Positions 3,019 through 22,655 of a stretch of DNA of 64,000 bases are shown here, piece by piece. Numbering within the stretch: the stretch's first letter is position 1; the number at the start of each line of letters is the position of its first letter. The notes beneath the pieces were generated by a model. That model saw only the letters and a list, made by a program, of their open reading frames with translations. It had not been told where the DNA came from and made no database searches. The DNA lies in NCBI RefSeq assembly GCF_030034735.1, contig NZ_CP125370.1:3100001-3164000 (forward strand). The letters run 5' to 3'. Origin of the DNA: Paenibacillus sp. RC334. Its GTDB lineage: Bacteria > Bacillota > Bacilli > Paenibacillales > Paenibacillaceae. A program made the position numbers and the translations under genes.

Positions 3019-4254
3019 TTACGAAAGCTTCCAAAACGGACGTAAATCCCGCGATTCATCCCATTGTTTCCCCTGACGCAGGCTGTCCAGCAAAGGCCCT
3101 ACATAAGCTTTATATTGCGGATATACATCCAGTGAAACGATATCCAAAATAAGAGGCTCCATATATTCCCCCAGCACAATCCGATTTCCTTCATAAAAAG
3201 CTCTATGGGCCTCTTCCTCATCCAGTGGCCTACGCTCCAAGCGCGGATATTGAGACGCGATGAGAAAGGTCAATCCAATCACGCCTTTCGCGAGCTGCGG
3301 CGAAACAAGAAAGCTGGGTAGTGTACGGTATTCAAAACCTCCGTACGGTTGGCGGCGAAAATCGCCCAAATTGCCGTAATGCGGTCTGCGCCGGGCTGCG
3401 CGTTTGTCTTCTAACAACGCCAAAGGCAGCGCTAAATAATTGTCCAGCGCACGTAGCAGAGACCCGTTCAGCGGAATTCCGCTAAAATGCAGATGCCCTC
3501 CCAGCGGAAAACCGGACTGCGGCATCCCGCCTGCTTGCCAAATTAGCGTACGATCGGCAATGCGCCGGGCTGCTGCCGCAAAGGCACGGCGTAAATGGGT
3601 CAGCAAAAGAGCCGGATCGCCACTTGGTGCGGGTCGAAGCTCAGCGACCGGGTACAACGTCCGCCCCCGGCGCGTAACCGCATCGCATCCCGCCACGCCA
3701 AGGCGGCCCAAATATCGCGAAGCCGGTACAACCCGTCCTTCCGGCATGCGGACCAGTACAAATTCAGGGTCCATTCCGATTAGCAGCTGTTTATCCCCTT
3801 GTACCGCTGGAAGGCCCTGCTCCTGAACATCCACTTCGCGAGCTGCGGCTTCATATAGCGTGTCTAGGCGTCTATCATTAAGCCATGGCTGGGCCACGAC
3901 TTCACGCACCTGACAGCTGCGCTCGCCCAGCAGTGTCAGCGTCACCTCGCCACTGTCGAGGCCAAGTGTGTACAAAGTACGTACAGCCAGTCGCTCCATT
4001 CGGACGGACAGCTGAGAGCTGCTATCCAACGCAGACGGATCATAAGCGCGGACTTTGGAGTGTCCTTCAATCGTACGTCTTCGAATTTCCAGCATTCGTA
4101 GCTGATGGATCTGCACCGCATAGCCTACCGCAAAATCTGCTGCGTTGTCGTCAATCCAGCGAACCGATATGCCGGAGCGTTCCAGCCTGCGCTGCTTTTC
4201 ATCATCCGACATCTGTCTGAAGCGTCTGAGCGCCTGTCCCGCCTGCTGCATCAT
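3019..4254 (-). CDS. Amidoligase-like protein (phiEco32-type COOH-NH2 ligase family)
   Basis: A 411-residue protein. From about residue 155 it carries the signature of the glutamine-synthetase/gamma-glutamylcysteine-ligase-like amidoligases: G-M-D-P-E-F (start of the active-site sheet), a later A-E-L-R-P, G-G-H-L-H-F-S, and G-G-F-E-Y-R-T-L-P-S-F. In this superfamily the acidic and His residues bind metal and ATP for carboxylate-amine ligation. The first 150 residues resemble nothing I recognise. The start is ATG ATG at 4254/4251, preceded by GGGAGGGG. Family membership is read from motifs; the substrate is unknown. Its position between cotE and mutS, which are adjacent in Bacillus subtilis, suggests a peptide- or spore-coat-linked role, but that is inference. 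Confidence 0.7.
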   Translation of the reverse strand: MMQQAGQALRRFRQMSDDEKQRRLERSGISVRWIDDNAADFAVGYAVQIHQLRMLEIRRRTIEGHSKVRAYDPSALDSSSQLSVRMERLAVRTLYTLGLDSGEVTLTLLGERSCQVREVVAQPWLNDRRLDTLYEAAAREVDVQEQGLPAVQGDKQLLIGMDPEFVLVRMPEGRVVPASRYLGRLGVAGCDAVTRRGRTLYPVAELRPAPSGDPALLLTHLRRAFAAAARRIADRTLIWQAGGMPQSGFPLGGHLHFSGIPLNGSLLRALDNYLALPLALLEDKRAARRRPHYGNLGDFRRQPYGGFEYRTLPSFLVSPQLAKGVIGLTFLIASQYPRLERRPLDEEEAHRAFYEGNRIVLGEYMEPLILDIVSLDVYPQYKAYVGPLLDSLRQGKQWDESRDLRPFWKLS

Positions 4255-13989: not shown

Positions 13990-14556
13990 ATGAATTTACT
14001 ATCTTATGGTCTGCTGGGCCTTCTCGCCAGAGAAGAATCCTCCGGCTATGATCTGATGCTGCGTATCCAGCCTTTTTGGCAGGCCAAGCACAGCCAGATC
14101 TATCCACTGCTAGCGCGTATGGAAAGCAAGGAATTGCTTGCTTCCCGCTGGATTCAGCAGTCCGACAAACCTGATAAAAAAATGTATACCATTACAGACA
14201 AGGGAATTCATATGCTTCAGCAATGGTCCCAGGAATCACTGGCCGCTCCGGTCACACGGGACGAATTAAGCCTGCGGCTGTTCTGTCTCTGGCTGACGGA
14301 CAAAAGCAGTGCCAACCGTATGCTGGAGGAACGCAAGCGTCATTTTATTCAGCGAATACGGCACCTTGAGGATATTCTGAACGACATTCCTGACGAGGAT
14401 CTGCATTTTGGCAGCAAAAACTTCGGTGATTACATTCTCGTGCAAAAAGGGCTTATGAATGCCAAAGCGGGTCTGGAGTGGTGCCAAATGGTACTGCGTA
14501 TGCTGCTCGCCGGAGATGTAAGAGCGGACACTAATCCATTTTCACTTAAACCGTAA
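13990..14556 (+). CDS. PadR family transcriptional regulator
   Basis: A 188-residue regulator. The N-terminal winged helix has the PadR features L-S-Y-G-L-L-G-L-L-A, S-S-G-Y-D-L and the recognition segment S-Q-I-Y-P-L-L-A-R-M. The second half is the helical dimerisation domain (Vir_act_alpha_C-like), containing L-F-C-L-W-L and A-G-L-E-W-C. The ATG at 13990 is preferred over one at 13972 because AAGGAG lies nine bases upstream of it. No target operon is adjacent on the same strand except the Gly-rich membrane protein gene 156 bases downstream. Family known for phenolic acid and multidrug responses; the effector here is unknown. Confidence 0.88.
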   Translation: MNLLSYGLLGLLAREESSGYDLMLRIQPFWQAKHSQIYPLLARMESKELLASRWIQQSDKPDKKMYTITDKGIHMLQQWSQESLAAPVTRDELSLRLFCLWLTDKSSANRMLEERKRHFIQRIRHLEDILNDIPDEDLHFGSKNFGDYILVQKGLMNAKAGLEWCQMVLRMLLAGDVRADTNPFSLKP

Positions 14557-14712
14557 GACAGAATGCTTTAGTCCATTCAGGCATAGGATTTATATATCAA
14601 TAAAATTTGAATGTTTTAATTTTTTTGAAACCCTTTTCTATCCGTTTCGTATTACTGGTAAGCGGCTGTTTGACCTATATCAAACCAACATACCAAGGGG
14701 GATATATTTAAC

Positions 14713-15168
14713 ATGAAAAAAACTTTTACTTTGAAAAATATGATGATGCTGATGATGGCTTTTACCCTGCTGATTGTTATGGTCGCACCATCTACAGCTG
14801 ACGCGAGGCGAGGCGGCGGATTTAAATCCGGGCAAAAAACGTACCAATCTACACCGAGCAAGGCCACTAACAGCAACGGCGTCAATAAGTCTGATAGCGG
14901 AACCAAATCCAGTGCAACTGCGGGTAATGCAAGCAGAACGGGTGGGTTCCTTGGCGGTGGCGGCGGGTTCCTGAAAGGAATGATGCTGGGTGGTTTGGCA
15001 GGTATGCTCTTCGGCGGACTGTTCGGTAATATGGGCGCACTGGGCAGCTTGCTTGGCCTTGCGGTCAACGTTCTCGCTATATACGTCCTGATCATGGTCG
15101 GAGTAGGTATCTACCGTGCTATTAAAAATCGTCGCAGACCTGATGATTCCCGTGGAGGACGTTACTAA
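14713..15168 (+). CDS. Gly-rich membrane protein, Tim44-N-terminus-like
   Basis: A 151-residue protein of the type often labelled preprotein translocase Tim44 in Bacillales genomes, although no Tim44 domain is present. It has an N-terminal signal or first membrane helix (residues 10-35, ending before A-D-A-R-R-G-G-G), a Ser/Thr/Asn/Lys-rich linker, a Gly-rich block (F-L-G-G-G-G-G-F-L-K-G), and two hydrophobic segments ending in a basic tail (N-R-R-R-P). The function is unknown. A ribosome binding site AAGGGGG lies upstream. The next gene begins 3 bases after the stop, so the two form an operon. Confidence 0.65.
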   Translation: MKKTFTLKNMMMLMMAFTLLIVMVAPSTADARRGGGFKSGQKTYQSTPSKATNSNGVNKSDSGTKSSATAGNASRTGGFLGGGGGFLKGMMLGGLAGMLFGGLFGNMGALGSLLGLAVNVLAIYVLIMVGVGIYRAIKNRRRPDDSRGGRY

Positions 15169-15171
15169 GTT

Positions 15172-15450
15172 ATGATTTTAAGTATGGATGAAATTGTAAA
15201 TGCCATCTGTCTGCATATGGCTGAACGCAAAGGCGTCCAGCCCACTGATGTGACTGTAGAATTAAGCTGGGAAGAGGATACAGGATATTCGGCAGAAGTC
15301 CATGTACAAGGCCGCAGCCAGTATCTGGTGGAAGCCAACATGATTGAGGCCATCCTGAGATACCTGCATTCCGAGTACAATATCCGTGCCTATCGCGAGC
15401 AGGTCAGACTGGATCTGGACGAAGAAATTACGGCCATTGTCCAGACTTGA
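15172..15450 (+). CDS. YxcD-like (DUF2653) protein
   Basis: A 92-residue acidic cytosolic protein that resembles the Bacillus subtilis YxcD family of unknown function: M-D-E-I-V-N-A-I-C near the start, then W-E-E-D-T-G-Y-S-A-E-V, then A-I-L-R-Y-L-H. Two starts are possible, ATG at 15172 or at 15184; the nearest GGAGG is inside the end of the previous gene, 13 bases before the first ATG. It is in an operon with the Gly-rich membrane protein, which suggests a shared but unknown job. Confidence 0.7.
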   Translation: MILSMDEIVNAICLHMAERKGVQPTDVTVELSWEEDTGYSAEVHVQGRSQYLVEANMIEAILRYLHSEYNIRAYREQVRLDLDEEITAIVQT

Positions 15451-15495
15451 TGGAATAACGCATAGAGTCACCTAACAGAATAAGCATTGAAACGG

Positions 15496-15536
15496 AAGAA
15501 CCGACCTTCGCTTGATGCAAGGGTCGGTTCTTTTTT
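15496..15536 (+). terminator. Terminator after YxcD-like gene
   Basis: An 11-bp perfect stem, AAGAACCGACC with GGTCGGTTCTT, then a run of T to 15536. Confidence 0.85.
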
Positions 15537-15555
15537 GCGTTCTATAGGACATTAG

Positions 15556-16434
15556 CTAAATGTGTGGAACTGACGATACCGTAACCTGGGGCGCCCTTTC
15601 GAGCAGACCACTGCCGTACATTTCCCGAAACGGTTGCTCCTCCATATGAATGTACCCGATATAACAGCCGCATTCCTTCATACGGCACGGACGCTTGGCA
15701 CTTAGTCCTTCAAGGCCATCTCTGTACAAGTGACCAAGCACTCGCCGATCCTGGTAGCAATGTTTTACACGTCCGTCACCCTGTACGTAAAATACATCCT
15801 CCCCAGCACGACACGCCCGCCCCTGACTGCTGTAATCCTGCAAATTCCATTGGAAATAGGGATCTATAGCCGTTAATTCATCAATCTCGGCATCGGTATA
15901 ATAATGTGGTCGATCCTTGTAAGCGTTGACCCACAAATAAACATCCTTCGGAAGCTGTGATCGCAAGGAATGAATAGCGGGAAAAGCCTGTCTCAGTCCC
16001 ACGGTGCCGACACTGTAGGAAATACCAAGTTCATATAGCTTCATACCTTGAGATATAAAAGCCGGCTCCTTCGTCTCTCCCGGATGATACGTCGCCCACA
16101 GCGCAGCCGTCCTCGGGTTCAGTTCCCTGGCCCAATCCAGCTTAGTGGACAGATTCGTCTGTACAGCCACTTTATCCACATGCGTCATATGGGAAAACTC
16201 AATCATGGCCTTGCGGTACCAGGAATGAATGAGAGCTTCTCCATACGGATTAAAAAATATGGATAGTCGATGCCCCAAAGTTCCCTGTTCCCGTACCCAA
16301 TCAGCAAAACGATCCAGCTGCGCCCGATCCTTGTTCAATGTTTCACGGCTATCCACGTTTTTGCTGAACGGGCAGTAAGGGCAAGCATAGTTGCACGAAG
16401 TCAACGAGCCACGATAATATAGGGTTGCTCTCAT
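15556..16434 (-). CDS. Radical SAM protein, STM4011 family
   Basis: A 292-residue radical SAM enzyme. The [4Fe-4S] motif C-x3-C-x2-C is C-N-Y-A-C-P-Y-C near residue 14. The C-terminal part has a Cys cluster (H-C-Y-Q at about residue 235, then C-R-M-K-E-C-G-C-Y) that could bind an auxiliary cluster, as in SPASM-type enzymes. It overlaps the STM4012-like gene by 4 bases (16431-16434) and is the last gene of the five-gene cassette. The family is named after Salmonella STM4011; reaction and substrate are not established. Family assignment rests on the motif plus the exact gene order of the cassette. Confidence 0.85.
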   Translation of the reverse strand: MRATLYYRGSLTSCNYACPYCPFSKNVDSRETLNKDRAQLDRFADWVREQGTLGHRLSIFFNPYGEALIHSWYRKAMIEFSHMTHVDKVAVQTNLSTKLDWARELNPRTAALWATYHPGETKEPAFISQGMKLYELGISYSVGTVGLRQAFPAIHSLRSQLPKDVYLWVNAYKDRPHYYTDAEIDELTAIDPYFQWNLQDYSSQGRACRAGEDVFYVQGDGRVKHCYQDRRVLGHLYRDGLEGLSAKRPCRMKECGCYIGYIHMEEQPFREMYGSGLLERAPQVTVSSVPHI

Positions 16435-17855
16435 GCGCCTACGTAGCCTTCCATCCGCTCCCGTACTGCCGTAGATATCATCCAGTCGCCAATCGCATCG
16501 GAATAAGCCATTCCTTCCTCGGTCAGTCGCAGTGTGTCGTCTACAACCACCGCCATACCAGATTCCAATAACAAGGACATTCCTGCAAAATCATCCGCCA
16601 GAGACGCATCGAAGCGCGCGGTGTAAGCAGATAGCTCCAGACCTTCACGATGGAGAAGTGCCTTCAGAATAAAACGCCGCTTGCTCTCCTCCACATTTAA
16701 AATAAAGCCGTAATCAGCCAGATCATGACGCTCGGCGGCGACATAATCAGCAATAATACCGCGCGTTGCGGCTGCACTAACACCGTATCGGCTGGCATAG
16801 TGGACATTACGCGTATAGGAGCGCGCACCGCAGCCCAGACCGGCCATGCCTTCCTCCTGACAGCTGTATGGCAGCAGCTCCTTGCCGGGTGCATCATCAT
16901 TTTTGGCAAAACGGCGCATGGAATATTGTACATATCCCGCCTGTTTGAGTCTTTCACGTGCTACTTCGTACAAGCTGAGACGAATATCATGATCCAGCCC
17001 AGTATAGCCCGGCTTTAAAATCGTATTTTCCCGAATGTATAATGGGTAAATAAAAATTTCACCCGGTGCGTAAGATAATGCCTCTTCCAGAGAATACAGC
17101 CACGTTTCCGCCGTTTGACCGGGGAGACCATAGATCAGATCTACGTTCAACAGCGGAAAATCGTACTCCACCAGCCGCGCAAGCGCTTCACGCACAAGCT
17201 TGGGCTTCTGAGGGCGGTATATGGCCGCACTCTCCGACTCCACAAAGCTCTGAATCCCCATGCTGACACGGTCCGTTCGGCGGCGCTTGAGCACCTCCAG
17301 CCGATCTTCGGTTACCGTATCCGGCGACGTTTCCACCGAAATGGAAGCATGTTCAGGGTCTAAACCCATCAGATTTTCCGCAATGTCAAACAATCGTTCG
17401 ACCAAAGGAGCCTCCAGCAAGGTTGGCGTACCGCCGCCGATGGCAAAGCGTGAAAACGGCCGACCACCCATGATTGGCGCCCATTGTCGGGCTTGTCTTT
17501 CAAGCGCATCCACATACTCCTTATGCACATCCAGCCGCTTGTCGGGCAAAGTGAACAGGTTACAGAATCCACAACGAGCCGCGCAAAACGGAATATGCAT
17601 ATACAAAAAATAGCTCTCCAGCTCCTCCTTCTCCCACAACTCTTGCAGTGAGAGCGGTGTATCAAAAGGCCGATAGGCCGTTTTATGCGGGTAAGAGTAC
17701 AAATAGGAGCGGTAGGGAGCTTCACGGATCGTGCGTGCCCATTCAACAGGGTTCTCAGGCCATAGAGACCTTGATGTTGAGCCTGTGTCCAGCCCCGCAG
17801 GGGGATTGGCTCCTGCTCCCGTTAGAAGCGAGTGATTCAGATTCATGGCTTTCAT
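16431..17855 (-). CDS. HemN-like radical SAM protein, STM4012 family
   Basis: A 474-residue protein with a HemN-like radical SAM core: H-I-P-F-C-A-A-R-C-G-F-C (C-x3-C-x2-C, about residue 91), G-G-G-T-P-T-L-L, E-T-S-P-D-T-V, R-V-S-M-G-I-Q-S-F, and N-V-D-L-I-Y-G-L-P-G-Q-T. A C-terminal HemN-type helical domain follows. HemN-like proteins include coproporphyrinogen dehydrogenase, heme chaperones and methyltransferases, so the chemistry is open. The ATG at 17855 has GGAGGG seven bases upstream. Fourth gene of the cassette, 68 bases downstream of the hydrolase gene. Confidence 0.85.
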   Translation of the reverse strand: MKAMNLNHSLLTGAGANPPAGLDTGSTSRSLWPENPVEWARTIREAPYRSYLYSYPHKTAYRPFDTPLSLQELWEKEELESYFLYMHIPFCAARCGFCNLFTLPDKRLDVHKEYVDALERQARQWAPIMGGRPFSRFAIGGGTPTLLEAPLVERLFDIAENLMGLDPEHASISVETSPDTVTEDRLEVLKRRRTDRVSMGIQSFVESESAAIYRPQKPKLVREALARLVEYDFPLLNVDLIYGLPGQTAETWLYSLEEALSYAPGEIFIYPLYIRENTILKPGYTGLDHDIRLSLYEVARERLKQAGYVQYSMRRFAKNDDAPGKELLPYSCQEEGMAGLGCGARSYTRNVHYASRYGVSAAATRGIIADYVAAERHDLADYGFILNVEESKRRFILKALLHREGLELSAYTARFDASLADDFAGMSLLLESGMAVVVDDTLRLTEEGMAYSDAIGDWMISTAVRERMEGYVGA

Positions 17856-17923
17856 TTCTGCTCCCTCCTCGCGCTGGATTGATTCTTTACATTTTACCAG
17901 TGCAATCTAAAATTTCTTGTACC

Positions 17924-18706
17924 CTACAACACAAATTCGCGGTAAGGCACATTCCATACTACCTCATGAGCTAGGCGATGCCCTTCGTAGCCATCTTCCC
18001 CATAAGCCGTACCATGATCGGAAAAGGCCATGCAAAATGTCTTCCCCCGGTTTCGTAAAGCGTCGAACAAACGCCCAAGCTGCCCATCCACATAACGCAA
18101 GGCTGCACGTTGGGACTCCACCGAATCCTTGGCTGAGCCCTCCAGAAAATAGTGATTAGGGCCATGAATAGCTGACACATTCAGGAACAAAAACAGCCGC
18201 TGCGCCGGGTCTGCCTTCTCCAGCAGCTTTAGGGCATGATTCACCTGATGCTCGGTTGAACGGGGATTCGTAACGCCGAAGGTCATACGCCAGTAGCTTT
18301 CCTGAAAATACCCCGGCAGCACCTTGGCAAGCTTGTTTTTTTTCGTGAAAAAAATAACACCGCCGATGCAAATAGTCCGGTAACCTTCACACGCCAGCCC
18401 GGATACAATATCCGGTGCATCAAACAGCCACGTATGCGGATGTGTACGCAGTCCCGTATCTTTAGTATGAAACAGCCGTATGTGAGAAGCCTTATCCGTA
18501 TTAGCCGGTGTAGGCAAGAATCCGCCAAAAAACGCATGATGTGCAGCATAGGTAAAGCTGCCCGGCGTATGGCGTTTTTCCCACGGCCCGGAGCCACACA
18601 GGTTCGGACAGTTTTCTTCCTCCAGCTTGGCTACATCGTAACGCAGCGTGTCAAGCGTAATCATGACAATATCATGAGAACCGACAATCTGGTTCATATC
18701 GGTCAT
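17924..18706 (-). CDS. Alkaline-phosphatase-superfamily hydrolase, STM4013/SEN3800 family
   Basis: A 260-residue protein of the sulfatase/phosphodiesterase fold. The N-terminal metal-binding Asp lies in V-M-I-T-L-D-T-L-R-Y-D; the C-terminal metal motif is S-D-H-G-T-A-Y-G-E-D-G, followed by G-H-R-L-A-H. The segment H-T-P-G-S-F-T-Y-A-A-H-H offers Ser/Thr candidates for the nucleophile. It has no signal peptide, so it is cytosolic, unlike most sulfatases. Its ATG at 18706 overlaps the stop of the ATP-grasp gene (ATGA), so the longer upstream frame to 18763 is rejected. Third gene of the cassette; substrate unknown. Confidence 0.82.
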   Translation of the reverse strand: MTDMNQIVGSHDIVMITLDTLRYDVAKLEEENCPNLCGSGPWEKRHTPGSFTYAAHHAFFGGFLPTPANTDKASHIRLFHTKDTGLRTHPHTWLFDAPDIVSGLACEGYRTICIGGVIFFTKKNKLAKVLPGYFQESYWRMTFGVTNPRSTEHQVNHALKLLEKADPAQRLFLFLNVSAIHGPNHYFLEGSAKDSVESQRAALRYVDGQLGRLFDALRNRGKTFCMAFSDHGTAYGEDGYEGHRLAHEVVWNVPYREFVL

Positions 18707-20040
18707 AATAAGCCTTTCCTTTCCAAAGTTGCAGTCCCATTGGCGAGATGCAGCATTTCCCATTCATATGGATTCCACCCCTGATGTTTCACCCGGTATA
18801 ACAGATCGCCGAACGGATTTACATCCAGCACGTAGGGACGACCACCATGTGCAGGAACCAGCACATCCAGCCCGGCAACCATAGAGGCCGGAAAAGCGCT
18901 CATCGCGGCTTCCGCAATTTGCCGAACCGATTCTACCGTATCCTGCAGCAACCCGGCGTCCTCCAGCAACAGCCGTTCATTGCGCAAATGCAGATTCGTA
19001 ATTGGGCTTCGGCTTAAACGTAAAACGGCATGACAAGCCTCTGATTCGCAAACAAGCTGGCGTACATCGTAAACACGTCCGTTCAGACTCGCTTTAGGTA
19101 TCCAGCGTTCCACATGCACCCCTTCCGAGCATAGCCAGCCCAGGATGGCATGAATGTCCTGCTTGTCCGTATAACGGCGCAAGCGTCCGGCATTGTAATA
19201 CACACGCTGTCCGTGTACGATTTCCGTTCCAATGGTGGTTACTGCCAGCTCTGCCCGTGTCCGCGGATGCATCTGATAGGCTATTACACCAGAAGCACCG
19301 GACCCGCAAAATATTTTCACAAACAGACGGTGAACCCCGCTCTCCTTCATCGCTGTGTGTAGATCAGCAACATCACGAAAGGTACCGTCTGGTGGTGCAA
19401 GCACAGGCGGAACCCTTATGCCCGCCTTGTCCAATACGGCGCTGCAACGCCGTTTGTCGAACATCACAGCCACTTCCGCCGGATCATTCATCCAGCGCGA
19501 CGAGGGCCATAGCAGGGCTGCTTCTTGCCGTAGCCACGCCAGCAGACGGCAATAGCCCCGGAACCATTGTGCCGGGTGCCAAATACGACCGTGCTGCTCC
19601 AGCAGGCCTCGCGCTTCTGCCGCCAATATACCTGGGCCATGTGCTAATTCCGCCCACGGCAACAAAGAATCGTCTCCCTCCGTATCCGGGGCTCCCAAAG
19701 CAATCAATTCACGTTCTACCTCAAAGCGTTCACCCGGTGCATCCAGACGAAGCAGCGGACTAATGTCCGCCCGCCCCGTCTGTAACTGACGGATGCTCTC
19801 TTGCACATAAACACTAGCATTTACGCTGTCTGGCGCAGCCTGTGCAGCTATTCGGGCCAATAACTCCCCCAGACTTTGCTTCTCCCGGATGGCTTCCAGC
19901 ACATTTTTATAGGAAATCTCAACAGCGGGCGGCAGCTTCAATCTGCTTCGCGCCTCCTGTAGTCCTGTGGTCCGCCGATTCCCCGGATTGCCGAACAAAA
20001 TAAACGGCTCGCTGATATTGCTGTCTGATATCCCAACCAT
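18703..20040 (-). CDS. ATP-grasp protein, STM4014 family
   Basis: A 445-residue protein with an ATP-grasp ligase domain in its second half: the ATP-binding Lys in L-F-V-K-I-F-C-G-S-G-A-S-G (about residue 245), and the metal-binding end of the fold in V-L-D-V-N-P-F-G-D-L-L (about residue 415). The N-terminal 200 residues begin F-I-L-F-G-N-P-G-N-R-R and match no family I know. ATP-grasp enzymes join a carboxylate to an amine or thiol through an acyl phosphate. Start ATG at 20040 with GAGG upstream. Second gene of the cassette, 58 bases after the LRR gene. Confidence 0.82.
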   Translation of the reverse strand: MVGISDSNISEPFILFGNPGNRRTTGLQEARSRLKLPPAVEISYKNVLEAIREKQSLGELLARIAAQAAPDSVNASVYVQESIRQLQTGRADISPLLRLDAPGERFEVERELIALGAPDTEGDDSLLPWAELAHGPGILAAEARGLLEQHGRIWHPAQWFRGYCRLLAWLRQEAALLWPSSRWMNDPAEVAVMFDKRRCSAVLDKAGIRVPPVLAPPDGTFRDVADLHTAMKESGVHRLFVKIFCGSGASGVIAYQMHPRTRAELAVTTIGTEIVHGQRVYYNAGRLRRYTDKQDIHAILGWLCSEGVHVERWIPKASLNGRVYDVRQLVCESEACHAVLRLSRSPITNLHLRNERLLLEDAGLLQDTVESVRQIAEAAMSAFPASMVAGLDVLVPAHGGRPYVLDVNPFGDLLYRVKHQGWNPYEWEMLHLANGTATLERKGLL

Positions 20041-20098
20041 AAAGCCGCCTCACTTTAATTTTTGAATAAACTTGATCGTAAAGGATCTTTTTTATGGA

Positions 20099-20941
20099 TT
20101 ACTCGGTCAACGATGGATAACGCCAATCATCTTCCTCGTCCGCTTGCTGCTGATCTTCTACATTCACAGACAGTCCGAAGTTTTTCCAACGTTTTACCAT
20201 TTCATCCGACATATAATGATAGCTCAAATCCAGATGCTTCAGCCCTTTGATACTTTCACTAGCGAGCAGTGCCTCAGCCCCTTTATCGGACAACGTGCCT
20301 TGAGACAGATCCAGTACCTCCAGTTGTCCAATCACAGGTGCGTTTGCCGCAGCAATCGCGATTTCATCCTGTATTTCACTATCCTTCAGCCCCAAATAGG
20401 TCAGCTTTGGAAAAAGATTGTCGTTCAGGAACGGTAATACATCCTTTAGGCCACCATCAAAGCCGTATTGATCCACGCCCAAATACAACTCCAGCTTGCG
20501 CAGCTCAGGCAGCTCGGCATTACGAATTTCCTGAAGGACACTCGCAGGCAAACCCCCGCAAATAATAACCAATTCCTGAAGGTTTTTATGCCGTAACGGC
20601 TCCAGGCTCAGGTCCTGACTTCCTTTGACATAAAAGGATTCCAAAGCTGGAAACGCCTCCAACAGCGGAGACAGATTCGTCTGGTTAATCCACGAAACCT
20701 CACACTCATCATATTCCATATCCCCGATAAACAGCTTACGCAGCTTCGGAAATTGATCTTTGTGCTTCACCAGCACCGGTATAAAATCCTCCGGCGATTG
20801 TTCATAGGCTCCGCCCCAGTCTCCAATAATCAAATCCGTTATTTCTGCGCTCTCTGGCTTGACTGCCAGTTCTTCAATAGAATTAGCCATCGTTTGACCC
20901 TTCTCATAAGCTTCATAATCCACAACCAGCTTTACTTCCAT
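20099..20941 (-). CDS. Leucine-rich-repeat-like protein, STM4015 family
   Basis: A 280-residue cytosolic protein with irregular leucine-rich repeats from about residue 60 to 255: L-R-K-L-F-I-G-D, L-E-S-F-Y-V-K-G, L-Q-E-L-V-I-I-C, L-R-K-L-E-L-Y-L, L-T-Y-L-G-L-K-D, L-E-V-L-D-L-S, L-K-H-L-D-L-S. It ends in an acidic tail followed by D-D-W-R-Y-P-S-L-T-E. GGAGG lies 11 bases before the ATG. First gene of the cassette in the order of Salmonella STM4015 to STM4011. LRR proteins normally bind partners, so it may be scaffold or substrate for the four enzymes; that is inference. Confidence 0.82.
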   Translation of the reverse strand: MEVKLVVDYEAYEKGQTMANSIEELAVKPESAEITDLIIGDWGGAYEQSPEDFIPVLVKHKDQFPKLRKLFIGDMEYDECEVSWINQTNLSPLLEAFPALESFYVKGSQDLSLEPLRHKNLQELVIICGGLPASVLQEIRNAELPELRKLELYLGVDQYGFDGGLKDVLPFLNDNLFPKLTYLGLKDSEIQDEIAIAAANAPVIGQLEVLDLSQGTLSDKGAEALLASESIKGLKHLDLSYHYMSDEMVKRWKNFGLSVNVEDQQQADEEDDWRYPSLTE

Positions 20942-21013
20942 CTCGTAATACCTCCGATCACTGATCTGAAAATGTAATAAATCCCTATCTCGTAAACTAT
21001 CTATTTCCAGTTT

Positions 21014-21043
21014 AGTCTATCCTATCATACCAATGTTCGTCAA
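21014..21043 (-). promoter_or_regulatory. Possible promoter of the STM401x cassette
   Basis: On the minus strand TTGACG (21038-21043) is followed after 18 bases by TAGACT (21014-21019), a fair sigma-A match, 73 bases before the LRR start codon. The -10 is weak. Confidence 0.35.
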
Positions 21044-21100
21044 AAATAGACCCCTGACGACATCAATCCTATGTAAAATGTAAGCGATGAAATTAAACAA

Positions 21101-21129
21101 GGCAGCCCGGTAAACTGCTCCGGTCTGCC
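21101..21129 (-). terminator. Terminator of the efflux operon
   Basis: Minus strand GGCAGACCGG pairs with CCGGGCTGCC, with one mismatch, around a 9-base loop, and is followed by TTGTTTAATTT. It lies 60 bases after the stop of the lipoprotein gene. Confidence 0.65.
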
Positions 21130-21188
21130 CTGCGCTTATACTCCCTAATAAATCTCTACTATATAATACAAGAGATTTTGAAGCCGAA

Positions 21189-22655
21189 TTATTGGCTAAT
21201 GGTGATCGGTGAGTTATCAGACAGCAACGCCAGATTATTTACGATTACATTCTCTTCGTTGCTCAAGCCACTGGTAACCAGTGTTTGTGAGCCTGTCGTC
21301 TGAACCGTCTTCACTTCCTTGCGTTTCGCATGGTCACCATTCACAACGTATACATATTGCTTACCTTGATCCTTTTGAATCGCTGCGGTAGGAACGACAA
21401 TACCTTCTTGTGCATTCGCAGCGACAAAGCTGATATCAGCCAGCATACCGGATTTCAGTTTCACGTCCGGATTAGCCACCGAAATTTTCACAGGATATCC
21501 TTTTCCACTTGCGTCCAACGGGCTTACATTTTTAACTGTACCTGTTGTCACAATATTCGAAGCTGCTACACGTACCTGTACCTTGTCGCCTGCTTTTACA
21601 TTGTTGATCTGCTCAGCCGGTACATAGATCAGTGTATTAACTGTACTCAGGTTGGCAATGACTAGCGCAGGAGCCTGAGCGGATACCATTTCGCCTACTT
21701 CTGCATTTTTCGTACCTACAATACCGTTAATCGGTGATGTAATCACTGTATCGTCGAGTGCGTCCTGAGCGATGCTCACATTTAGCTGAGCCTGCTTGAG
21801 AGACTGTTGGCTGGACTCGATAACGGCTGTATTTTGAGATACCTTCAGTTGATTTTGCGCATTGCTGTAGCCGCTGTTGGCATTACTGTAGCTGTTTTTT
21901 GCTGAATCGTAGCTGTTACGGGCCGTAGTGAGCGCCTTCTGAGCAGCCACCAGTTGGTCCTGGGCATTAGCCTGTGCGTTCTGCGCATTGTTGTATGCCG
22001 CTTCTGCGTTCACAACGGCTGTTTTTGCTTGTTCCAGTTGTGCTTGAGTACTCGCACCCGCATCAAACAGGCTTTGAGTACGCGTTACATTTTTCTGAGC
22101 ATCCGCCAGCGCTTGCTGCGTTTGCTTCACCGTATTGGCCGCCGAGGAGACGCCGTGTGTCGCCTGTTCTACGGCTGTAGTAGCCTGATTAATGGCTCCC
22201 TGCGCCTGATTGATTGCGCTTTGGGACTGAATCACGCCGCTTTTGGATTGTACTACGCCCGAGTTGGCTTGAACCATCGTCGATTCATGGGATGCCTGAG
22301 CAGAACTCACTCCTGCTGCTGCCGCACCTGCTGCGGCGCGGGCCTTCGCTACATTATTCCGCATGTCCTTGTCATCAAGCTTGAACAGCACTTGACCTTT
22401 TTTGACCTCTGAGCCAATATCCACAGGCAGTTCAACTACTTTACCGCCCACTTTTGGAACGATATTCACTGTCTCCGAAGGAGTTACCGTTCCTGTATAA
22501 ATGTTCCCTTGCCCAATGATACCCTGCTGCGCTTGGCTGATCTTGACAGGAACGACCATATCCTGCGCCGCTCCACTATTACTGGAGCAGCCTGCCAGCA
22601 CTGCGCCGCCGAGCACTAAGACCGCTAATGTACTTTCTACTCTCAATATTTTCAT
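21189..22655 (-). CDS. Efflux periplasmic-adaptor-type lipoprotein with long coiled coil (HlyD/MacA class)
   Basis: A 488-residue membrane fusion protein. The signal peptide ends in the lipobox L-A-G-C, so it is anchored outside the membrane. A lipoyl-like half (I-V-P-K-V-G-G-K-V-V-E-L-P-V-D-I-G-S-E-V-K-K-G) is followed by a very long Ala/Gln/Asn-rich helical hairpin (about residues 90-285), the second lipoyl half (I-T-S-P-I-N-G-I-V-G) and a beta-barrel domain. In Gram-negative bacteria such hairpins meet TolC; here there is no outer membrane. The frame runs upstream to 23147 across the MFS gene, which is a false extension; the ATG at 22655 has AAAGG upstream. Third gene of an operon with HlyD and DHA2 genes. 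Confidence 0.85.
   Translation of the reverse strand: MKILRVESTLAVLVLGGAVLAGCSSNSGAAQDMVVPVKISQAQQGIIGQGNIYTGTVTPSETVNIVPKVGGKVVELPVDIGSEVKKGQVLFKLDDKDMRNNVAKARAAAGAAAAGVSSAQASHESTMVQANSGVVQSKSGVIQSQSAINQAQGAINQATTAVEQATHGVSSAANTVKQTQQALADAQKNVTRTQSLFDAGASTQAQLEQAKTAVVNAEAAYNNAQNAQANAQDQLVAAQKALTTARNSYDSAKNSYSNANSGYSNAQNQLKVSQNTAVIESSQQSLKQAQLNVSIAQDALDDTVITSPINGIVGTKNAEVGEMVSAQAPALVIANLSTVNTLIYVPAEQINNVKAGDKVQVRVAASNIVTTGTVKNVSPLDASGKGYPVKISVANPDVKLKSGMLADISFVAANAQEGIVVPTAAIQKDQGKQYVYVVNGDHAKRKEVKTVQTTGSQTLVTSGLSNEENVIVNNLALLSDNSPITISQ

Follow-up and report, generated by a model that had tools for sequence, protein, structure and literature searches.

A five-gene STM4015-STM4011 cassette of Paenibacillus sp. 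RC334 and its possible role in modifying the C-terminus of its own leucine-rich-repeat protein

The window analysed here is a stretch of 64,000 nucleotides from the chromosome of Paenibacillus sp. RC334, and the subject of this report is a cassette of five genes on its minus strand (15556-20941) that may modify the C-terminus of one of its own products. The original prediction had assigned these genes to the families named after Salmonella STM4015 to STM4011, which was confirmed, as 5 of 5 proteins exceed the curated NCBIfam cut-off of their family. An STM4015-family leucine-rich-repeat (LRR) protein of 280 amino acids (20099-20941; NF038076, 370 bits versus a cut-off of 275) is the proposed substrate or carrier, and an STM4014-family ATP-grasp ligase of the LysX/RimK kind with 445 amino acids (18703-20040; NF038074, 461 versus 175 bits) is the proposed loader of the STM4015 C-terminal Glu. 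Next come an STM4013-family protein of 260 amino acids, likely an alkaline-phosphatase-fold phosphoesterase or transferase with a probable Thr nucleophile (17924-18706; NF038075, 409 versus 250 bits), an STM4012-family HemN-like radical S-adenosylmethionine (SAM) enzyme of 474 amino acids (16431-17855; NF006067, 586 versus 380 bits), and an STM4011-family radical SAM enzyme of 292 amino acids with a C-terminal Cys cluster (15556-16434; NF038073, 398 versus 200 bits). The predicted 4-base overlaps, both ATGA, were found again between the genes for STM4014 and STM4013 (18703-18706) and for STM4012 and STM4011 (16431-16434); at the remaining two junctions the genes lie 58 bp and 68 bp apart. The closest homologue of the window STM4011 (91%) belongs to a cluster named Paenibacillus sp. 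FSL L8-0663 and that of STM4015 (90%) to P. kribbensis. Promoter and terminator scans gave no signal above shuffled sequence, and Rfam gave no match at gathering level in window positions 14000-22000.

Near its 3' end, the STM4015 gene encodes an acidic linker, poorly conserved in a comparison of 101 STM4015 sequences (codons at 20123-20167, minus strand), followed by the C-terminal tail RYPSLTE (codons at 20102-20122, minus strand), with the final Glu proposed as the point of attachment. This conserved tail is new here and was absent from the original prediction. Throughout the family it is nearly fixed: a variable, acidic linker leads into seven residues, which typically read R-[Y/F]-x-A-V-x-E. 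Among 105 STM4015 open reading frames (ORFs), a terminal Glu was found in 102, Arg at position -7 in 97, Tyr or Phe at -6 in 96, and Val at -3 in 82. The three exceptions (L039 ends in Asp, L071 and L076 are extended) lie in loci that each have other, Glu-ending copies. A second set, which partly overlaps the first (score above 60 bits, distinct and not cut; it includes the window protein and repeats two copies from L062), ends in Glu in 73 of 73 cases, and so do 120 of 120 among the best 120 of 1746 homologues of the window STM4015, mostly from Paenibacillus. Variation was seen in Methylobacterium and Salmonella, where no aromatic residue stands at -6, and in Fimbriiglobus and Singulisphaera metagenome-assembled genomes (MAGs), where four cassette-linked LRR proteins, three of them with a WGR domain, end in GD[WYMI]E, so that in these proteins the terminal Glu has been kept although the remainder of the tail has not. 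The usual kind of tail is found in five other loci of Planctomycetota.

The tail stands out from its surroundings. In the 101 sequences, the last seven residues reach an ungapped identity of 58%, versus 16% and 13% in the two preceding blocks and 38% over the aligned columns as a whole, and the linker has 5.5 acidic residues per 15 versus 2.4 protein-wide. The ends of the four cassette enzymes are much more variable, with identities of 9, 12, 33, and 9% in the last seven residues; for two cassette-adjacent proteins, DUF6745 and a small HEEH protein, the values are 58% and 54%. Among 13,369 other ORFs of the same loci, the strict tail pattern was found in 0 and a loose one in 8.

STM4015 is present as a single copy in 48 loci and as two to four copies in 23, and six tandem copies precede one enzyme set in an actinomycete-type locus (L187). 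Paralogues from Myxococcota that have no other cassette gene in the stretch examined still carry the tail; in the survey that included them, all paralogues with at least 170 bits end in Glu, and three of the weaker LRR ORFs below 100 bits do not (L123, one in L125, and L126). An N-terminal WGR domain was detected with our own profile in 13 of the 105 ORFs, and Pfam WGR occurs in STM4015 members of Myxococcota, Bacteroidota, and Planctomycetota. One open frame from Myxococcales (L121) has a HEAT match over the cut-off, and one Nostoc copy (L088) has such a match below it. For one STM4015 relative, named Q64V53_BACFR, a solved structure is available (2RA8).

In all four enzymes the likely catalytic residues are invariant among 32-33 aligned relatives per family, which bears out the catalytic motifs noted earlier. 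In STM4014 (33 sequences) these are D195-K196, K242, D325-x-R327, and N408. Its fold is nearest, among the matches listed, to LysX, RimK, and ArgX, enzymes that attach amino acids to the C-terminus of a protein, with the graspetide ligase PsnB in the second Foldseek row and glutathione synthetase and inositol-pyrophosphate kinases also close. STM4013 (32 sequences) keeps D19, T52, D230-H231, and H243, and its fold is sulfatase/EptC-like among the matches listed. Following the superfamily, we take the invariant Thr to be the nucleophile place and the Asp and His residues to be the metal-ligand places; by pattern, Thr was found in 89 of 91 STM4013 proteins, and the other two fail the pattern. 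Because of this fold and these invariant residues, STM4013 is likely a phosphoesterase or phosphotransferase.

STM4012 (32 sequences) has an invariant C91-x3-C95-x2-C98, and its profile is nearest to HemN (1olt, 4e-58; alignment of 395 columns) and then to the methyltransferase NocN (9p2u, 1e-38). The coproporphyrinogen III dehydrogenase HemN requires the fourth Cys of CxxxCxxCxC. Salmonella HemN has Cys there, whereas this place is Leu in 82 of 83 STM4012 proteins, the 83rd being a 58-amino-acid piece, and a role as coproporphyrinogen dehydrogenase was therefore ruled out. In STM4011 (32 sequences), CxxxCxxC and five further Cys are invariant; a weak profile match to SkfB (6efn, E 0.008) was obtained, and some relatives are annotated in their source records as 'sulfatase maturation enzyme'. 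On a Bacteroides plasmid, STM4011 forms a fusion with a Cof-type HAD phosphatase, and the gene after STM4011 in Salmonella belongs to the Pfam family of this phosphatase, which hints at a phosphorylated intermediate. PADLOC returned only PDC-M51A for STM4012 (2.8e-10) and pVip for STM4011 (0.0033), nothing for the other three proteins, and no specific defence-system match.

For the comparison across genomes, loci were collected by tblastn of plasmids and by one genome-contig scan with STM4013, from which 80 genome loci were kept of at least 567. The resulting 91 loci (11 plasmid, 80 genome) were annotated with our own profiles; the counts exclude the small L001-L007 as well as L008, which is almost the same as the window, and phylum names were taken from record titles and recall. 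Judged by the titles of the records, at least nine phyla have the cassette. It had been presented as a Firmicute occurrence of an enterobacterial type, which is misleading, as Salmonella gives only the family name and the cassette also occurs in Actinomycetota, Myxococcota, Chloroflexota, Planctomycetota, Cyanobacteria, Deinococcota, and others. STM4013 relatives were found in all of these named phyla and in Alpha-, Beta-, and Gammaproteobacteria, Bacteroidota, a Capsulimonas MAG (Armatimonadota), and a Blastocatellia MAG (Acidobacteriota). A megablast search with the Salmonella cassette gave no match in 5,426 E. coli genomes, where copies below about 85% identity would escape. A phage-borne cassette was considered and rejected, as only 2 records of a phage collection match STM4011, a 5.9 kb 'Salmonella phage' record and one named Salmonella enterica.

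When gene order was compared, the plain order 4015-4014-4013-4012-4011 was colinear in 37 of the 91 loci, and 13 more have one extra leading 4015; since this order recurs in many phyla, the arrangement is not due to chance. One of the 37, the Bacteroides finegoldii plasmid record L015 (7935-9890), has STM4013 and STM4012 only as pieces of about 59 amino acids, and its STM4011 is fused to the HAD phosphatase. A split form, with 4013-4012-4011 on one strand and 4014-4015 on the other, is found in many Myxococcota and some others. Within the stretch examined, STM4013 stands alone in 7 loci, among which L016 holds a distant relative; 9 have only 4013-4012-4011, and 2 only 4013-4012. The refuting case named in the original prediction, families commonly found apart, applies in part, as STM4013-family proteins stand without the other four in the stretch of two Streptomycetaceae clusters. 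Of 17 genomes drawn from loci that mostly have no STM4015 nearby, 15 have matches to the STM4015 profile elsewhere in the genome, of which only 2 exceed the curated cut-off; in three of the 15 (G249, G251, and G258), the match reaches no more than E 4e-11 to 2e-13.

Further support for the earlier proposal that the five genes act together was obtained from co-occurrence, analysed with STM4011 and STM4015 in sets of 98 and 61 genomes and with STM4014 in the 98. Among the 98 genomes, which belong to the window's family, an identical set of 32 has STM4011, STM4014, and STM4015 over the cut-off; weaker ATP-grasp matches raise the STM4014 total to 73. The family to which Streptomyces luteolifulvus (L062) belongs was represented by 61 genomes; STM4015 exceeds the cut-off in 30 of them and STM4011 in 27, all inside the 30. 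The three genomes with STM4015 and no intact STM4011 are G272 (L194), where STM4011 is frame-broken, and G266 and G283, each with an orphan STM4015; of these two cases one has an altered and one a canonical tail. Conversely, two streptomycete-type genomes without STM4015 (G276 and G302) contain short pieces of STM4011. The pairwise distance matrices of all five families correlate with r between 0.65 and 0.94 (64 loci and the window), and 0 of 500 permutations reach any of these values.

Horizontal spread as a unit, also proposed earlier, is partly supported by the patchy occurrence, with 32 of 98 genomes in the family and STM4013 over the cut-off in 4 of 149 genomes of the phylum, all four within the window's family. 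A recent transfer was not shown, because, of the 8 taxon sets that have at least two members, 5 are single clades: in a tree of the four concatenated enzymes these are the Actinomycetota, Myxococcota, Deinococcota, Methylobacterium-type, and Janthinobacterium sets, and the sets from Planctomycetota, Cyanobacteria, and Chloroflexota are not single clades.

As STM4015 keeps a short Glu-ending tail across many phyla, the cassette looks like an attach-and-remodel machine that acts on the last residue. We propose, with a probability of roughly 0.55, that it modifies the C-terminus of its own LRR protein, with STM4015 as substrate or carrier, STM4014 ligating an amine to the terminal Glu, and the radical SAM pair and STM4013 remodelling the attached group or the tail. 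In STM4015, the short tail would follow a flexible acidic linker behind a folded LRR body, which in some phyla has a WGR domain on its N-terminal side. STM4014 would use ATP to activate the carboxylate of the terminal Glu and join an amine, either an amino acid or an amino compound, and the two radical SAM enzymes would then alter either what has been tethered or the aromatic tail next to it. Extra C-terminal Cys of the STM4011 kind bind an auxiliary Fe-S cluster in peptide-modifying enzymes, and STM4011 might carry out an oxidative or cross-linking step. The HemN/NocN-like STM4012 might perform a C-methylation or similar step, and STM4013 might take off or transfer a phospho-group. The tail as substrate, Glu as attachment point, the order of steps, and all of the chemistry are what we infer from co-occurrence, gene order, tail conservation, enzyme families, and predicted folds. 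The protein-modifying pathway considered in the original prediction is supported in a more specific form, with the C-terminal Glu of STM4015 as the probable site, and the most economical model would be a ligase-plus-radical-SAM system writing on the C-terminal Glu of LRR proteins.

As several divergent STM4015 proteins with a common tail go with a single cassette, we think that the modified protein itself is more likely the end product than a released metabolite, and that the modification may be lasting. Tentatively, LRR and WGR-LRR proteins from at least nine phyla could be an unrecognised class of carrier or tagged proteins, in which the cassette builds a radical-SAM-modified group on the C-terminal Glu and one enzyme set per genome gives a divergent LRR family a common, chemically new tail.

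Three other explanations are each unlikely. The tail might be matured like a ribosomally synthesised and post-translationally modified peptide (RiPP), without an outside amine, by an internal ester or amide from STM4014 in the manner of graspetides or by a Tyr-Glu cross-link from STM4011, with the LRR body as an oversized leader. PqqE cross-links Tyr to Glu in PqqA, and the PsnB match of STM4014, the radical SAM and extra C-terminal Cys layout of STM4011 with its weak SkfB match, and the dominance of Arg-aromatic at -7/-6 and Glu at -1 are consistent with such chemistry. However, only the terminal Glu is near-universal, given the tails of Methylobacterium, Salmonella, and some Planctomycetota, and Ser, Thr, and Lys are all missing from common tails such as RYVAVGE. 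In the annotated plasmid tables, which are incomplete, neither a protease nor an exporter turns up repeatedly. A RiPP would come from a short precursor peptide with a cleaved leader, for which no systematic search was made; the tailed protein has about 280 amino acids or more.

We also consider it improbable that the tail is a docking or recognition peptide or a degradation signal, with enzymes that make a small molecule and STM4015 as regulator or scaffold. Such a function would not need the exact free terminal Glu seen in 102 of 105 ORFs, and STM4014 is nearest in fold to enzymes acting on such an end, although glutathione synthetase and inositol-pyrophosphate kinases are near as well, STM4012 resembles HemN and NocN, and two orphan STM4015 copies, one of which has the canonical tail, occur in genomes without STM4011. 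Similarly low odds are given to a pure carrier pathway, in which a metabolite is built on the STM4015 Glu as on LysW and then released, the LRR body only recruiting enzymes; these odds overlap with those of the preferred C-terminal modification, as the loading step is common to both, so that the figures do not add to one. The logic is that of amino-group carrier proteins, and phosphatase-type partners (STM4013, and the Cof-type HAD in Bacteroides and Salmonella) would suit a small-molecule route, but no releasing peptidase recurs in the same incomplete plasmid tables, and divergent LRR paralogues, some with WGR, that share one tail are hard to explain if the body is a handle. A sulfatase with its maturing radical SAM enzyme (anSME pair), suggested by the sulfatase-like STM4013 fold and by some source annotations of STM4011, was rejected as highly improbable, since formylglycine requires Cys or Ser and the nucleophile place is Thr in 32 of 32 aligned STM4013 proteins.

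Several observations were made around the cassettes. Downstream of the window cassette, two convergent plus-strand genes (14713-15450) encode a membrane protein with a sub-cut-off SARAF match and a DUF2653/YxcD protein, and a 9-bp inverted repeat with a 15-nt loop, read by eye, lies between these genes and the cassette at about 15498-15530. The DUF6745 protein, ending in Y-x-P-x-x-[EQ]-[TA], and the HEEH protein of about 100 amino acids, which has GEVTGH and HEEH motifs and ends in Asp, were found in 36 of 91 loci, always both (L009, L010, L011, L012, L017, L018, and others), and not beside the window cassette. DUF6745 was rejected as an STM4015 homologue, as hhalign shows no relation, and no paper naming it was found in the literature library searched. 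In Streptomyces albidoflavus (L013, 7860-11309), STM4013 lies with a MoaA-like radical SAM protein, a dTMP-kinase-like protein, a protein of about 160 amino acids, and a NUDIX protein, and the same cluster was recognised by eye and with our own profile in Kitasatospora (L019, 9834-13253); a nucleotide pathway is possible. On Ti plasmids (L016, 5971-7451), a distant STM4013 relative (24.7% identity) stands beside a GTP cyclohydrolase II-like protein, identified by eye. A 9.0 Mb genome labelled Comamonas (L026/G259) has the cassette layout of Myxococcota and is perhaps mislabelled or mixed. The Paenibacillus 'plasmid' pHD02 (NZ_CP013205, L008) may be a chromosomal piece, because the genes flanking its cassette resemble those of the window chromosome.

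The cassette is present in many phyla as well as in Salmonella, yet only family names have been available so far: nothing on the function of the STM4011-STM4015 families was found in the literature library searched, and in excerpts of two publications STM4013 or STM4015 appear in tables with no function attached (PMC3844500, PMC2784778). With a conserved free C-terminal Glu beside a LysX/RimK-type ligase, the vague 'biosynthetic pathway' becomes a testable statement on the mass of the last STM4015 peptide. If true, two radical SAM enzymes would help to make a post-translational modification of a repeat-protein family, in which some genomes have scattered paralogues with the same tail.

Among known systems, the pearlin pathways build 3-thia-amino acids on a carrier peptide, and in the tmo pathway, as excerpted, TmoB appends Cys and the protease TmoG frees the product (PMC9303977). 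Chemistry at a carrier C-terminus with a radical SAM enzyme is common to that pathway and the role proposed for the cassette; unlike there, counterparts of TmoB and TmoG were not recognised at the cassette, for which no systematic search was made. RimK is an ATP-grasp ligase that, according to the excerpt of PMC4741518, acts on the C-terminus of ribosomal protein S6 (RpsF). It shares with STM4014 the D-x-R, [TS]NLH, and metal-binding stretches, whereas the acceptor proposed for STM4014 is no ribosomal protein but an LRR protein whose gene lies next to that of the ligase, and further modifying enzymes are present. The LysW/ArgW carriers have an acidic C-terminal stretch ending in Glu, as described in excerpts of PMC9303977 and PMC10433800, and in these terms LysW/LysX and ArgW/ArgX resemble the cassette in having an acceptor with an acidic, Glu-ending C-terminus and an ATP-grasp ligase of the same fold class. 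Unlike LysX and ArgX, STM4014 lacks the GSWGR motif (the ligase motif that recognises EDWGE in carrier systems) in 72 of 72 proteins. The STM4015 acceptor also differs from LysW in being an LRR protein of about 300 amino acids, often in several copies, without a counterpart of the small Cys-bearing LysW body, and in having two radical SAM proteins and an alkaline-phosphatase-fold enzyme as partners.

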